From the NCBI RefSeq assembly GCF_002834235.1, contig NZ_NNBY01000024.1, positions 1-64,000 of the forward strand: a stretch of 64,000 bases of DNA. The letters are read 5' to 3'. This document shows, piece by piece, positions 910 through 7,682 of this stretch. The DNA is from Ruminococcus bromii (lineage in GTDB: Bacteria; Bacillota; Clostridia; Oscillospirales; Acutalibacteraceae). The position numbers and the translations under genes are program-made. The notes below the pieces were generated by a model that was not told the origin of the DNA, ran no database searches, and saw only the letters and a list, made by a program, of their open reading frames with translations. Each line of letters begins with the position of its first letter. Positions within the stretch are counted from its first letter, which is position 1.

Positions 910-1650
910 TTAAAGAACCTTTGATAAAAATTCCTTTAAACGGTCGTCCTGCGGATTATTGAAGAACTCCTGCGGATTGTTCTTTTCTTTGATAACACCG
1001 TCGTCAATAAATACAACATCGCTTGCAACTTCCTTTGCAAAGCCGATTTCGTGAGTAACAACAACCATTGTCATACCTGCCTTGGCAAGCTCTTTCATAA
1101 CATCAAGAACTTCGCCGACCATTTCGGGGTCGAGTGCAGATGTCGGCTCGTCAAAGAGGAGAACATCGGGATTCATCGCAAGTGCTCTTACAATTGCAAT
1201 ACGCTGTTTCTGACCACCTGAAAGCTGATTCGGATATGCGTTTGCCTTTTCGGCAAGTCCTACACGCTCCAAAAGATCCATAGCGTCTTTTTTAGCCTCA
1301 TCTTTGCTCTTGCCAAGAAGCTTGACAGGAGCCATTGTGAGGTTGTCAATAACAGTCTTGTGGGGGAAAAGGTTAAACTGCTGGAACACCATTCCCATTT
1401 TTTGACGGTGAACATTTATATTAACCTTTGGATCCGTAATATCTGTACCCTCAAAGAAAATGTGTCCGCCTGTCGGTTCTTCAAGTCTGTTAAGGCAGCG
1501 GAGAAAAGTTGATTTACCCGAGCCTGACGGACCGAGAACAACAACTACATCGCCTTTAAAAATGTCAATATCAATACCTTTAAGAACCTGAATATCCTTA
1601 CCAAATGATTTTTCAAGTCCTCTTACGGAGATCAATGCGTTATCTTTCAC
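910..1650 (-). CDS. Polar amino-acid ABC transporter ATP-binding protein
   Basis: This 246-residue protein is the cytoplasmic ATPase of a GlnQ-type importer. Walker [10 protein letters not shown] is at residues 40-48, the Q-loop near 90, the signature LSGGQ at 143-147, Walker B VLLFDEP from 163, and the switch His in VVVTHE near 200. The start codon overlaps the end of the fused binding-protein/permease gene by 11 bases, so the two are translationally coupled and presumably form one transporter. The family (PAAT) imports polar amino acids such as Gln, Glu, Cys/cystine or Arg; the substrate cannot be told from the sequence. Confidence 0.95.
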
Positions 1651-3166
1651 TCTTTTTCAATCTCCTTTCAAATCTTCTGAGGATGTACGAAAGCACAAGT
1701 ACAATTACAAGGTAAATCAATGCAACCGTAATAAGCGGGAAGAATGCCTCGTAAGTTCTTGAACGAATCATATTACCAATATATGTGATATCTGCAAGTG
1801 CAACATAACCTGCAACCGAAGTTTCTTTGAGAAGTGTAATAATTTCATTGCCGAGTGCAGGAAGAACATTTTTAATTGCCTGCGGAAGAACGACCATTGT
1901 CATTGTCTGTCTGTTGTTAAAACCGAGTGAACGGCTTGCCTCAGTCTGACCGATGTCAACAGCCATAATGCCCGAACGAACAATTTCTGCAACATAAGCG
2001 GCAGAGTTCATACCAAATGCAATGATTGCGGCAAAGATACCGTTTCTTACAGATGCAAGAATAATGTAATACATAATCATCAACTGAACTACAACAGGTG
2101 TGCCTCTGATAACAGTAATGTAGATATTGCAAATCGCATTAAAGAATTTCAGAACACAATCACCGAAGCTCCTGCATTTTCTCTTGTCAAGCTGAATATC
2201 GTGAGTAGCTCTTACAAGAGCAATGACAAAACCGATAATAACACCGATAATACCTGCAAACAATGTGATTTCAAGGGTTACAAGCAAACCGCTTAAAAGC
2301 TGCTGCCATCTGTTATCTGTGATGAATGTGTTTTTAAAGCTTTCACCGAGATTGCCGAACAAACTGCCCGATGCACTGTCGTTTACGATAATAACCTGAG
2401 TTGTGTTTGCATATGAAGTTGAAAAGTCGATATTTTTTCTTCTTTCCGGTGTATCGGTCATACCCGCCATACCGAAATCGTCTTTGCCGGTCTGAACAGC
2501 AGTGATAACAGAATCAAATTCCATATCATCAATAACAAGTTTTTTACCGAGCTTGTCACAGATTGCTGTAGCCATCATCGGATCAAGACCGACAATTTTA
2601 CCGCCTTCAACATATTCATACGGTGGAAAAGCAGCGTTCGTAGCCATATGAAGTTCACCGTCATACTTGATATCCTTAGGTGATTCGTAGGGTACAGTAT
2701 CGGTATTACCCTCTATGTAATAGCTTTTGATTTTGTCCAGAACGCCCTCGTCTTTAAGCTCTGCAAGAGCTTTGTCGATTTTTTCGGTGAGTTCATGATT
2801 TTCCTTTGAAATGCAGATTGCATACTGCTCTTCCGCAAAAGGTTCATCAAGAATTTTTAGTCCTGCATTTGCTTTTACAAATTCCTTTGCCGGTTCACTG
2901 TCAATTACAACACAGTCGATTTTATTCTGTGTAAGAGCTACGATAGCGTCGGCACCCTTGCTGTAACGCATAACCTTGGTGCCGTCAGCCTCATAGTCAG
3001 ATACAAAAGTATCGCCTGTTGTACCTGTCTGAACACCTACGGACGCTCCTTTGATATCATCGGCAGTCTTAATTTCCTTAACCGATGAATCACCGCATCC
3101 GGTGAACAGAAAAACAGTGGAGAACAGCATTGAAATCAGTACCAATAAAGTAACTGTCTTTTTCAT
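1640..3166 (-). CDS. Amino-acid ABC transporter: circularly permuted binding domain fused to permease
   Basis: This is a 508-residue lipoprotein-permease fusion. Residues 1-24 form a lipoprotein signal (FTGC, Cys24). Residues about 33-150 match the second lobe of a PAAT solute-binding protein (GVQTGTTGD at 44-52, [10 protein letters not shown] around Asp89). Residues about 168-262 match the first lobe (NAAFPPYE at 177-184, [11 protein letters not shown] with Arg242). This is the reverse of the normal order, in which FPPYE and TPERR precede GVQTGTTGD, so the domain appears circularly permuted. From about residue 290 on is a HisM/GlnP-type permease with the EAA loop (EASRSLGFN). Arg242 and Asp89 are the expected ligand alpha-carboxylate and alpha-amino contacts, so the pocket seems complete. 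It lies between the malic enzyme and the ATPase in one operon. Confidence 0.88.
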
Positions 3167-3214: not shown

Positions 3215-4387
3215 TCAGATTCTTGCAACGCCTGATTCAATTGCAGCCTTCTTAACAGCCTCAGCAACAGTTTTACCGATTCTCTTGTCAAATGCCTCGG
3301 GAAGAATATAATCTGCATTAAGCTCTTCATCGCTCACGAGTGAAGCAATTGCAAAAGATGCGGCAACTTTCATTTCTTCGTTAATATCGCTTGCACGGCA
3401 GTCGAGAGCACCTCTGAAAATACCCGGAAAAGCAAGTACATTATTAATCTGGTTAGGAAAGTCACTTCTGCCTGTACCGACAACAGCCGCACCTGCCTTT
3501 TTAGCAATGTCAGGCATAATCTCGGGAGTCGGATTAGCCATAGCAAAAAGAATAGGATCCTTAGCCATTGACTCAACCATTTCTTCGCTTACGCAACCTG
3601 CGGCAGAAATTCCGAGGAATACATCAGCACCTTTCATTGCATCTGCAAGCGAGCCCTCAAGGTGAGAAAGGTTAGTAATTTCAGCCATTTCCTGTTTAAC
3701 AGCGTTAAGTCTCGGATCACCCTTGCAGATAATACCCTTACTGTCGCAAAGCGTAATGTCCTTTACACCCATATTAAGAAGGTGTTTTGCAATTGCAATA
3801 CCTGCCGCACCTGCACCGTTCATAACAACCTTGATTTCGTCAAGCTTCTTGTGAACAAGCTTGAGTGAGTTGATAAGACCTGCGGCAACAATAACGGCAG
3901 TACCGTGCTGGTCATCGTGGAAAATCGGAATATCACACTTCTCTTTGAGCTTCTTTTCAATTTCAAAGCATCTCGGAGCGGCAATATCCTCAAGATTGAT
4001 TCCGCCGAATGAACCGCTGATAAGGTAAATTGCGTTTACAATTTCGTCAACATCCTTACTTCTTACGCAAATAGGAAATGCGTCAACGTCGCCGAATTCC
4101 TTAAAAAGCGCACATTTGCCCTCCATAACAGGCATACCTGCCTCAGGACCTATGTCACCAAGACCGAGAACAGCTGTACCGTCTGTTACAACGGCAACAA
4201 GGTTGTTTCTTCTTGTGAGTTCAAAAGACTTGTCATAGTCCTTCTGAATTTCAAGACACGGTTCTGCAACACCCGGAGTATAGGCAAGAGAGAGGTCTTC
4301 AGCCGAGTTAATCGGAACTCTTGAAACAACTTCAATCTTACCGTTCCACTCATAGTGTTTTTTGAGTGATTCTTTTCTGATATCCAT
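3215..4387 (-). CDS. NAD(P)-dependent malic enzyme
   Basis: This 390-residue short-type bacterial malic enzyme carries out oxidative decarboxylation of malate to pyruvate and CO2. Visible motifs are SLAYTPGVAEPC (residues 33-44, catalytic Tyr36), a Lys in EGKCALFKEFGD (Lys91), metal ligands in INLEDIAAPRCFEIE (130-144) and FHDDQHGTA (157-164), and a Rossmann GAGAAGIA around 190. The length is normal for the family. The ATG at 4387 has an AAGGAG ribosome-binding site. It is first in an apparent operon with the amino-acid transporter (48-base gap), perhaps linking carbon-skeleton supply to uptake; that link is inference. NAD or NADP preference cannot be decided. Confidence 0.95.
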   Translation of the reverse strand: MDIRKESLKKHYEWNGKIEVVSRVPINSAEDLSLAYTPGVAEPCLEIQKDYDKSFELTRRNNLVAVVTDGTAVLGLGDIGPEAGMPVMEGKCALFKEFGDVDAFPICVRSKDVDEIVNAIYLISGSFGGINLEDIAAPRCFEIEKKLKEKCDIPIFHDDQHGTAVIVAAGLINSLKLVHKKLDEIKVVMNGAGAAGIAIAKHLLNMGVKDITLCDSKGIICKGDPRLNAVKQEMAEITNLSHLEGSLADAMKGADVFLGISAAGCVSEEMVESMAKDPILFAMANPTPEIMPDIAKKAGAAVVGTGRSDFPNQINNVLAFPGIFRGALDCRASDINEEMKVAASFAIASLVSDEELNADYILPEAFDKRIGKTVAEAVKKAAIESGVARI

Positions 4388-4875: not shown

Positions 4876-5081
4876 ATATTATTGTCGAATTTTAGCAATT
4901 TGTACAAATGTTATGCACATTTGCAATTAATTTAAAAAATGCATTGCATTTATGCTGCTCTTTTTTATTGTACTTTGCTTTATGCTGAAATCTATTGAAA
5001 TTGATTTAATTTGATTAGTTTCAGCCGACTGATTCGACACATAGTAGAGTTTTGAAATTAATTTGAAAGGTGTGTAAAAAT
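4876..5081 (+). other. AT-rich upstream region of the amylase gene
   Basis: No gene is seen. The stretch holds a 15-base palindrome, aaatgca-t-tgcattt (about 4937-4951), and a loose hairpin built from ctgaaatc and its partner gtttcag (about 4986-5025). Either might be a regulatory site for the amylase, but no confident -35/-10 pair was found. Confidence 0.3.
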
Positions 5082-7682
5082 TTGAAAACAAAATCAAAAA
5101 TACTCAGCGCAATATTGAGCGTGAGCATCCTGTCGGCAAGCCTATCTGCCTTTGTATCTGGTTCACTCGGTGTTCAGGCGGCAGAAAGCTCGCCAACCGT
5201 ATCGGCTAATAAGTACAGACTCAAAGATAATATTCAGGACGGTGTAATTTTACATTGTTTTGACTGGACTTATAACGATATTAAGGCTGAATTGCCTAAA
5301 ATTGCAAAAGCCGGATTTACAAGTATACAGACTTCTCCGGCACAGCCAAACGGAACAGGTACTTGGTATTGGTTATATCAGCCAATTTCATTCAGTATCG
5401 GAACAAATGGTGTCGGTACAAAGGCTGAACTTCAGTCGCTTTGTGATGAGGCAGAAAAGTACGGGATTAAGATTATTGTCGATGTTGTCGCTAACCATTT
5501 GAGAGGCGATCACAACAACATAGACAACGATTTAAAGCCATCCGAGTATTGGCATACCTTCGGCGGAGGTATTGACTGGAAAAACCGTTGGCAGGTAACA
5601 CACGGCTCGATTGGTATGCCGGACATTGCAACCGAAAATCCATATGTTCAGCAAAAAGTCTGCAACTATGTTCAGGAACTCAAGTCAGTAGGTGTTGACG
5701 GACTTCGTTGGGACGCTGCAAAACACATTGGCGTTCCGAGCGAGGGCGACGATTTCTGGAAATCGGTAACACAGTACGGTCTTTATAACTACGGCGAAAT
5801 TCTCGGTGGTCCCGATGACCGTTCGACAGGCAATGAAGACATTATGAAAGAGTATACCGATTATATTTCTGTCACAGACAGTAACTACGGTAAAGAACTC
5901 CGTGATTCGTTTAATTCGGGCAAAGCTCCTACTTCAAGCGGAAACTGGAGTGAAAAAGGCATTTCAAACGATAAGCTTCTTTATTGGGGTGAAAGCCATG
6001 ATACATGGTCAAACAACAAAGACTGGGGCTTTTCAAATGAAATGAGTCAGAATGTTATTGACCGTGCCTATGCGGTTGCGGCAAGCCGTAATAAAGTTAC
6101 TGCTCTTTATTTTTCCCGTCCTTCTTCAACCAACAAAGAAAGTATCAAAATGGGAGAAAAAGGCTCAACTCATTACACCAGCAGTGAGGTTGCCCAAATC
6201 AATAAGTTCCATAATGCAATGGACGGCAAAGCTGATTACTACGCCGTGTCAGACGGTTGTTCTGTAATTACCCGTAAAGACGGCGGTGCTGTTATCGTAA
6301 AAGGCAGCGGAAGCGGCGAGGTATCGGTAGAAAACGGCGGCGGTTACGCAAAACCGGGTACATACACAGACGCTGTTTCAGGCAATACATTTACAATTAC
6401 ATCAAGCACCATTTCAGGTACAATAGGTTCATCAGGTATTGCAGTAGTCTATGATGCCGAACCCGAAGGACCTTCGGCGTCGGTAACTCCGGGTTCAACA
6501 AACTACAATACAGATGAGCTCACACTTACGCTCAATTGCAAGAATGCAAAAAATGCTCAGTATTCAATTGATGACGGTGCATTTGTAAACTACACAAACG
6601 GTCAGCAAATTACAATCGGTACAAACCTTCCTTACGATACTGTAACCACAGTAACAGTAAAAGCAAGCGACGGCAAGACAACATCCGATCCAGAAACATA
6701 TACATACACAAAGGTAGACCCGAATGCCGTAAAGGTTGTTGCTTATGATAACTCATCAACCAAGTGGTCTAAGGTTAATGCATATTTCTGGAGTGATGAT
6801 AATAAAGAAATGACATCGTGGCCGGGCAAGAAAATGACCGACAAGGGTAATAATATTTTTGATATTGAAGTGCCTGACGGTGCAAAATATGTAATCTTCA
6901 ACAACGGTGACAGTCAGACAGATGACCTCAGGATTGCAGACGGTAATAAAATTTACAGCAACGGTTCTTGGCAGAACTATTCGACTGTAAAACCCACTCA
7001 GCCGACAACAGCTCCTTCAACGACAGTCCGTCCTACTACAATCGCAACTCAGCCTACCACATCACAGCCTGCTACAACACAGCCTGCTACAACACAGCCG
7101 TCTACAACTCAGCCGGTAACAGAGCCTTCAAACAGAATTCTTATCGGTGATGTTGATTTAAACGGAACATTTACAGTCTGTGATTCAACAGAGGTTCAAA
7201 GATACATTGTTAACATATCGACTTTAAGCGATGAGGCTCTCATTGCGGCAGATGTAAACAAGGATTCTGTTATTTCTGTAAAAGACGCAACTATGATTCA
7301 GGCTTATATCGTTAAGCTTATTGTTGAAGACTCATACTGCGGTACTTACACAGAAAATGTTGCACCCACCCAGCCTACAACAAATGTCACAGAGCCAACA
7401 ACCGAACCGACTTCAATTCAGACGAAGAATTATGTTTATTTCAATAATACGGAAAACTGGTCAACAGTAAATGTCTATGTATGGAGTTCAAAAGATTCGA
7501 CTTATATGAGCTGGCCCGGCACGGCTATGGAAAGTATAGGTAATAACACATACAGATTTGAACTTCCGAATGGTGCAGAATATGCTATATTCAATAACGG
7601 TTCAACACAGACAGGTGACTTAAAAATCCCCGATGTAAATATGATTTACTCAAACGGACAGTGGAGTAAATACTCCGAGTAA
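5082..7682 (+). CDS. Secreted GH13 alpha-amylase with two CBM26 modules and an internal dockerin
   Basis: The TTG at 5082 is preferred because AAAGGTG lies about 9 bases upstream; an in-frame GTG at 5070 would overlap that site. The product has 866 residues. A signal peptide (about 1-35) is followed by a GH13 catalytic domain with region I DVVANH (134-139), nucleophile Asp211 in GLRWDAAKH, acid/base Glu239 in YGEILGG and Asp307 in GESHDTWS. Then come an Ig-like domain (about 465-550), a CBM26 starch-binding module (about 550-635), a Thr/Pro linker, a type I-like dockerin (about 685-748), another linker and a C-terminal CBM26 (about 784-866). The dockerin has two Ca-binding loops, DVDLNGTFTVCD and DVNKDSVISVKD. 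The enzyme should hydrolyse starch outside the cell and dock to a cohesin, as in the R. bromii amylosome. Confidence 0.93.
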   Translation: MKTKSKILSAILSVSILSASLSAFVSGSLGVQAAESSPTVSANKYRLKDNIQDGVILHCFDWTYNDIKAELPKIAKAGFTSIQTSPAQPNGTGTWYWLYQPISFSIGTNGVGTKAELQSLCDEAEKYGIKIIVDVVANHLRGDHNNIDNDLKPSEYWHTFGGGIDWKNRWQVTHGSIGMPDIATENPYVQQKVCNYVQELKSVGVDGLRWDAAKHIGVPSEGDDFWKSVTQYGLYNYGEILGGPDDRSTGNEDIMKEYTDYISVTDSNYGKELRDSFNSGKAPTSSGNWSEKGISNDKLLYWGESHDTWSNNKDWGFSNEMSQNVIDRAYAVAASRNKVTALYFSRPSSTNKESIKMGEKGSTHYTSSEVAQINKFHNAMDGKADYYAVSDGCSVITRKDGGAVIVKGSGSGEVSVENGGGYAKPGTYTDAVSGNTFTITSSTISGTIGSSGIAVVYDAEPEGPSASVTPGSTNYNTDELTLTLNCKNAKNAQYSIDDGAFVNYTNGQQITIGTNLPYDTVTTVTVKASDGKTTSDPETYTYTKVDPNAVKVVAYDNSSTKWSKVNAYFWSDDNKEMTSWPGKKMTDKGNNIFDIEVPDGAKYVIFNNGDSQTDDLRIADGNKIYSNGSWQNYSTVKPTQPTTAPSTTVRPTTIATQPTTSQPATTQPATTQPSTTQPVTEPSNRILIGDVDLNGTFTVCDSTEVQRYIVNISTLSDEALIAADVNKDSVISVKDATMIQAYIVKLIVEDSYCGTYTENVAPTQPTTNVTEPTTEPTSIQTKNYVYFNNTENWSTVNVYVWSSKDSTYMSWPGTAMESIGNNTYRFELPNGAEYAIFNNGSTQTGDLKIPDVNMIYSNGQWSKYSE

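Follow-up and report, generated by a model that had tools for sequence, protein, structure and literature searches.

A predicted amino acid ABC importer of Ruminococcus bromii with a naturally circularly permuted, permease-fused binding domain, and apparently recurrent rotations of its relatives in Clostridia

What is to be made of a gene in which the parts of a PAAT solute-binding domain stand in an unusual order directly in front of a permease? Such a gene lies in the window, a stretch of 64,000 nucleotides from R. bromii. In canonical PAAT solute-binding proteins (SBPs) the chain runs D1a-D2-D1b, where D1a and D1b are the N-terminal and C-terminal parts of lobe 1 and D2 is lobe 2. The first-pass annotation of this DNA had proposed a natural circular permutation of the binding domain, fused to its permease. 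With a probability of about 0.85, we consider the system a predicted working amino acid ABC importer in which the binding domain has undergone natural circular permutation, with such rotations recurrent in Clostridia and the permease fusion a later step. The features of the locus are as follows.

1640..3166, minus strand: whole gene (508 amino acids), with a lipoprotein-type signal, a circularly permuted PAAT solute-binding domain and a PAAT permease
3098..3166, minus strand: lipoprotein-like signal peptide, residues 1–23, ending LFTG before C (from sequence; lipobox judged by eye)
2864..3079, minus strand: D2 (lobe 2; canonically mid-domain), residues 30–101, with Asp89 at 2900–2902
2711..2863, minus strand: D1b (canonically the C-terminal part of lobe 1), residues 102–152
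2663..2710, minus strand: new linker between the old C- and N-termini, residues 153–168
2378..2662, minus strand: D1a (canonically N-terminal; FPPYE...TPERR), residues 169–263, with Arg242 at 2441–2443
2315..2377, minus strand: junction to the permease, residues 264–284
1643..2314, minus strand: PAAT permease domain, residues 285–508 (from Pfam and solved homologues)
910..1650, minus strand: GlnQ-type ABC ATPase gene, downstream, sharing 11 bases with the permease gene
3215..4387, minus strand: malic enzyme gene, directly upstream of the transporter

Homologue matches place the segments in exchanged order. The SBP_bac_3 family (Pfam PF00497) matches the window protein at 110.2 bits against a cut-off of 26.4, split into two stretches, the better of which pairs the profile start (1–96) with residues 172–267. 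Similarly, residues 10–103 of AncQR (4zv1), a solved canonical protein, match residues 170–262, and its residues 108–227 match 31–147. The chain reads signal, D2, D1b, linker, D1a and permease instead of the canonical D1a-D2-D1b; each segment is present once, cyclically shifted, with the old termini joined, as in a circular permutant. Because this order is not canonical, we file the protein as a permuted variant of the PAAT SBP family. Consistently, when the domain was rotated against a profile of canonical relatives, its score rose from 156.7 bits in native order to 312.1 bits for a start at residue 161–169, which gave one continuous profile match. Rotation raised a stand-alone protein of the same order (L021) from 169.5 to 340.7 bits and a protein of a second rotated order (L073, class B below) from 281.2 to 356.8 bits; the canonical control (L057) scored highest unrotated (367.2 bits). 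The swapped matches and the rotation scan (157 to 312 bits) thus bear out the proposed permutation. The fusion was also confirmed, with Pfam BPD_transp_1 at residues 341–505 of the same open reading frame. However, residues 33–150, previously taken as one lobe, comprise lobe 2 (D2, ~33–100) and the D1b part of lobe 1 (102–150).

The same rotated order is present in R. bromii ATCC 27255 (L006, 99% identical) and, unfused, in the complete genome of Ruminococcus sp. FMBCY1 (L021), and is therefore neither chance nor an assembly artefact of one genome. In an uncultured Ruminococcus (L005) the locus is 93% identical, and comparison with it gives dN/dS values of 0.073 (binding domain) and 0.048 (permease); the gene evolves under purifying selection. 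The two main ligand contacts were found where the first-pass annotation had put them: Asp89 and Arg242, which by their roles in GlnBP and LAO we take to bind the amino and the carboxylate group, respectively, are invariant in 189 of 189 SBPs (64 of class A, the window's order, 47 of class B and 78 canonical; the long-branch rows L070, L206 and L207 were left out of this count).

In the AlphaFold2 model of the window protein, blocks over residues 31–260 have pLDDT values of 77–96, with a whole-chain pTM of only 0.48; the class B protein L073 reached a pLDDT of 92.5 and a pTM of 0.82. Residues 27–267 of the window model align in one piece to complete two-lobe SBPs, among them ArgBP (171 residues, 3.3 Å) and OpuAC (204 residues, 4.7 Å), in alignments by Foldseek and VIA-align 2, which we took to be sequential aligners and hence not to give a full superposition of a permutant. 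Over 170 aligned residues, L073 shares 40% identity with 4zv1. The binding-domain model fits one bilobed fold rather than two separate half-domains, and model confidence together with the sequential alignments agrees with a putative closed two-lobe fold.

The class A chain ends after the strand QVIIV, which in the window protein is the strand 253–262 that closes D1a in the AlphaFold2 model, and starts at the next lobe 2 loop. The class B chain starts just before the strand entering the second hinge (strand 27–44 in L073) and ends in the preceding lobe 2 loop. When the cuts are placed by AlphaFold2 strands and by GlnBP numbering, with hinges at 85–89 and 181–185, they would fall at opposite ends of lobe 2, each a few residues into it. 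This mapping puts the cuts past the hinge strand, and the idea of a severed hinge was rejected. With the new ends inside lobe 2 and past the first hinge strand, the two-strand hinge would be kept, lobe 1 would be continuous and lobe 2 would be joined by a single strand from the opposite chain end. The chain ends and their membrane tethers would thereby shift from lobe 1 to lobe 2, in the window protein both the N-terminal lipid tether and the C-terminal permease tether. Lipoboxes in the class A relatives examined are of LAGC, LAAC or TSC type.

The neighbouring domains are those of a PAAT importer, a PAAT-type permease and an ATPase being encoded together. The window permease scores above cut-off for PF00528 and HEQRo_perm_3TM, its nearest solved structure being the amino acid ABC transporter permease 4yms, and the ATPase best matches GlnQ, below the equivalog cut-off (324 vs 379). 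Uptake of a polar amino acid is likely, because the nearest solved relatives of the binding domain bind arginine or glutamine and the ATPase is GlnQ-like. The sequence shows that D1a-D2-D1b has become D2-D1b-linker-D1a running straight into the permease, with the ATPase gene overlapping downstream. In the mechanism that we propose, the domain would clasp an amino acid between Arg242 and Asp89 as it closes and then pass it to the permease, presumably a homodimer because one permease domain is encoded. The malic enzyme gene was considered as a functional partner and rejected: it is present in only 2 of the 80 best loci (L005 and L006), and for this reason it is probably not part of the transporter system.

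Relatives were encoded by 148 of 195 pattern-matched genome stretches, and the best 80 loci were kept; many of the rows compared come from MAGs. Among these, 47 have the canonical order, 24 the order D2-D1b-linker-D1a (class A) and 5 the order D1b-D1a-D2 (class B); one further class B protein is cut off (L074, with the same linker end), and 3 loci show no binding domain within the stretch. The canonical order, class A and class B are all three possible rotations of D1a-D2-D1b. A search for the window's order in related genomes, suggested beforehand together with the belief that similar sequences occur in other gut Clostridia, was thus successful: besides the 24 of the 80 best loci, at least 26 of 200 genomes in the family carry class A (L085–L108, including the window's own L089, and L206 and L207). 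Class B was found in at least 34 of these 200 (L171–L203 and L122). Across 341 genomes of the class, A was present in 19, including that of the window, and B in 32. In a sample of 398 genomes of the phylum, class A was detected in 3, all within the window's class, at a threshold (E ≤ 1e-45) that would miss more divergent class A proteins. A class B protein is 52–76% identical to canonical and class A pieces over the shared segments. Of the 57 stand-alone class A rows in the whole collection, 47 stop 1–2 residues past the D1a strand and 6 stop 3–8 residues past it; longer C-terminal tails are found in 4. A candidate rule based on permease number was abandoned, as a single permease gene is the norm whatever the segment order.

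Three loci (L012, L015 and L018) encode a second, canonical PAAT binding protein with a permease upstream of the rotated one. L206 and L207 are highly divergent order-A proteins, 33–34% identical to the class A query, and may represent further independent rotations; they are too long-branched for tree tests.

To ask how many origins these orders had, a tree was built from sequences whose segments had been rearranged to the canonical order. It had 109 rows, reduced from 192 by omitting long, odd or cut rows (L070, L090, L108, L119, L142, L158, L203, L205, L206 and L207) and same-class rows more than 80% identical. This tree, with a bootstrap that had yet to settle, implies 10 changes of segment order, and it rejects a single clade for A (p-AU 0.00023) and for B (p-AU 0.0176). 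Joining subclades A1 and A2 was likewise rejected (p-AU 0.00011), as was joining B2 and B3 (0.0398); segment orders were assigned from sequences, but subclades A1–A3 and B1–B4 were named after the trees had been seen, so subclade p-values are optimistic. A2 (L099–L101, represented here by L101 alone) sits among canonical rows, and B3 (L169) is sister to the canonical L026 with support of 100/98. A canonical Ruminococcus clade is nested in A1, and its exclusion was rejected (p 0.007, with L154 counted within A1); this reads as a reversion. In a smaller, 75-row tree, made without L001, L003, L004 and rows lacking any of the three segments, a single A clade could not be rejected (p 0.108, and 0.316 with L048; L070 and L002 were also left out of this test), whereas joining A with B was rejected (p 0.00087). 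The permease tree rejected A as one clade (p 2e-6); because A and canonical rows are mixed there with weak support, permease exchange is indistinguishable from rotation. Taken together, the rotations appear to have arisen several separate times.

The linkers joining the old C- and N-termini are clade-specific, for example NYIGDDTKGKTPYESPEGIEYPNGE in A1 (L012), KYINASGEALVGVPVTAVDTDKPN in A2 (L101), KYFGDGTPTPVASAVRDDSKDQ in B1 (L177) and KYISGVAHDLTFQANAEGKAE in B2 (L073); those of B3 and B4 are 29 and 62 residues long, the latter acidic. The minus-strand class B open reading frame L122:1111 has a 62-residue acidic, low-complexity linker resembling the tethers found behind lipoprotein signals. 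All three A2 proteins carry 19 additional C-terminal residues that resemble the D2 start of their canonical neighbours (EGGKINVIEDL in L101 vs EGGDIKSLDDL in the canonical L123). Downstream of the A2 stop codons, inspection of 360 nt by eye in three frames at three loci revealed only the permease start and no D2 remnant. The B3 and B4 linkers contain FTT.EEG.LIMATNA and enter D1a as FTTIEEGKLIMATNA and FTTKEEGVLIMATNA; their ends resemble the N-terminal tether that follows the lipobox in the canonical L136, FTTVEEGKLIMATNA. The full motif, which is short and adjoins conserved D1a, occurs in 1 of 21 canonical N-termini examined, with looser forms in L125 and L143. The A2 tail and the B3/B4 motif are suggestive as the leftovers expected of duplication, in-frame fusion and loss of the outer pieces, a route that the first-pass annotation had put forward in outline and that these remnants support in kind; no tandem SBP-SBP intermediate was seen in the loci scanned. 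L070, a protein of order A, resembles class B1 in its tail and its linker, which suggests that one rotated form was converted into another.

Several alternatives compete with the reading of a working permutant that arose repeatedly. The interrupted Pfam match, in two stretches, could be taken to mean that the two portions are independent half-domains serving other functions, as in a decayed binding protein, and form no working clamshell. This is hardly credible, given the purifying selection and invariant ligand residues, the full segment set in constant order, a confident predicted fold that aligns whole to SBPs, and the presence of an ATPase gene of this type at the same locus in 22 of the 24 class A loci. 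A more serious contender is a single ancient permutation of each kind, made patchy by gene transfer and a few reversions. It gains from the unrejected A clade of the 75-row tree, from the canonical clade that appears to have reverted within A1 and from the apparent conversion in L070. Nevertheless we judge it unlikely: the 109-row tree rejects single clades for both A and B, linkers differ clade by clade, A2 lies among canonical rows and carries a terminal D2 remnant, B3 is sister to a canonical protein, and gene transfer relocates a gene without rotating it. We favor several rotations in Clostridia, of two kinds: in A the cut follows the first hinge strand, and in B it precedes the second. 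They were probably produced by duplication of a gene, followed by fusion and removal of the outer pieces. A broader statement, that clostridial PAAT SBPs are a rotating family with at least six rotations through all three orders, including reversions and A/B conversion, with cuts next to but not in the hinge, retention owed to the shift of the membrane tether from lobe 1 to lobe 2, and duplication remnants showing the route of some of the rotations, is tentative, and we would put it somewhat short of an even bet.

The remaining alternative concerns the order of events. The first-pass annotation had derived the gene from a GlnP-like SBD-SBD-permease tandem that lost its two outer half-domains, so that the fused permuted form would come first and stand-alone forms later. 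Residues 32–260 of the window protein are indeed colinear across the SBD1–SBD2 boundary of the GlnPQ tandem 6h30 (102–327), and fused A forms exist, in 3 of the 80 best loci and in 7 further A rows. However, in the other 21 of the 24 class A loci the binding protein stands alone, ending at its own stop codon, and the permease is encoded separately, which argues that the permutation is probably older than the fusion. The fused forms account for 10 of 67 A rows in a tree built without L089 and duplicates; in the trees they occupy at least two positions and are scattered among stand-alone rows, the base of A being poorly resolved there. The loci scanned yielded no SBD-SBD-permease protein, and the window protein has a single binding domain before its permease rather than a tandem. 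In addition, a 20-residue stretch from residue 268 of the window protein resembles the N-terminus of a separate permease (SFFESIAASFTRTFITDDRW in L012), as expected of read-through into an ordinary permease start. Because loss of a stop codon could account for this junction, the tandem route is unlikely in its details, and as a whole we consider it quite improbable. Class A ends with D1a beside the permease gene, so stop-codon loss can fuse the two; the distance from binding-protein stop to permease start was roughly 60–125 bases in the 9 loci examined. Fusion would have followed rotation, probably by read-through of this short gap into the next gene. L204 and L205 encode canonical-order binding domains fused in front of a permease (open frames of 577 and 527 amino acids), and permease fusion is therefore not tied to rotation.

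The window protein shares its segments, ligand motifs and predicted fold with canonical PAAT SBPs of the SBP_bac_3 family (GlnH, ArtJ, TmArgBP and AncQR 4zv1), whose chain ends in lobe 1, whereas the rotated chain would end in lobe 2. Lactococcal GlnPQ (SBD1-SBD2-permease) likewise places a homologous binding domain covalently before the permease, but with two canonical-order domains rather than one permuted domain. Among ABC solute-binding proteins, TpMglB-2 (Tp0684), a tethered lipoprotein designated "Type Ic / Cluster Bc", is naturally permuted, and its authors mention relatives in Gram-positive gut bacteria (PMC4990184). Unlike the window protein, TpMglB-2 has a type I sugar-binding fold and a separate permease, and one rotation is described (PMC4990184). 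Permutation relations have also been described among glycine-betaine SBPs (OpuAC/ProX), molybdate SBPs and CysB (CPSARST), which are distant proteins with <24% identity (PMC2395249); the PAAT rotations are shallow, apparently recurrent and within an amino acid-binding family. In the open-licence PMC literature, we found no report of permuted PAAT/SBP_bac_3 proteins, of a family with all three rotations or of such rotations recurring. Natural SBP permutation is already known; what appears to be new is permuted amino acid SBPs, three coexisting rotations and their apparent recurrence.

To our knowledge, natural circular permutants are mostly known from single old events, and their origins have therefore been debated on the basis of the end products. 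In this family the three rotations coexist in close relatives, apparently with more than one origin each and with possible traces of intermediates, which makes the duplication-and-loss model directly testable. Whether a binding protein has to be tethered to the membrane through lobe 1 can also be examined here as a natural experiment, and amino acid biosensors could draw on these domains as ready-made permuted scaffolds. For annotation, rotated genes score as ordinary SBP_bac_3, and the family name hides the rotation.

Two observations lie apart from the rotated genes. At L042:4235-5548, a PAAT permease carries an additional N-terminal part of ~200 residues, for which L042, the only one scanned, gave no Pfam family match. 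Similar extended permeases occur in L038, L044, L046, L047, L049, L053, L054, L056, L067 and L071; in the three examined by eye, the extension looks like a membrane helix followed by an extracytoplasmic domain. Elsewhere in the window (5070-7682, plus strand) lies an alpha-amylase gene with two CBM26 stretches and a dockerin, presumably as expected of the starch-degrading complex (amylosome) of R. bromii.
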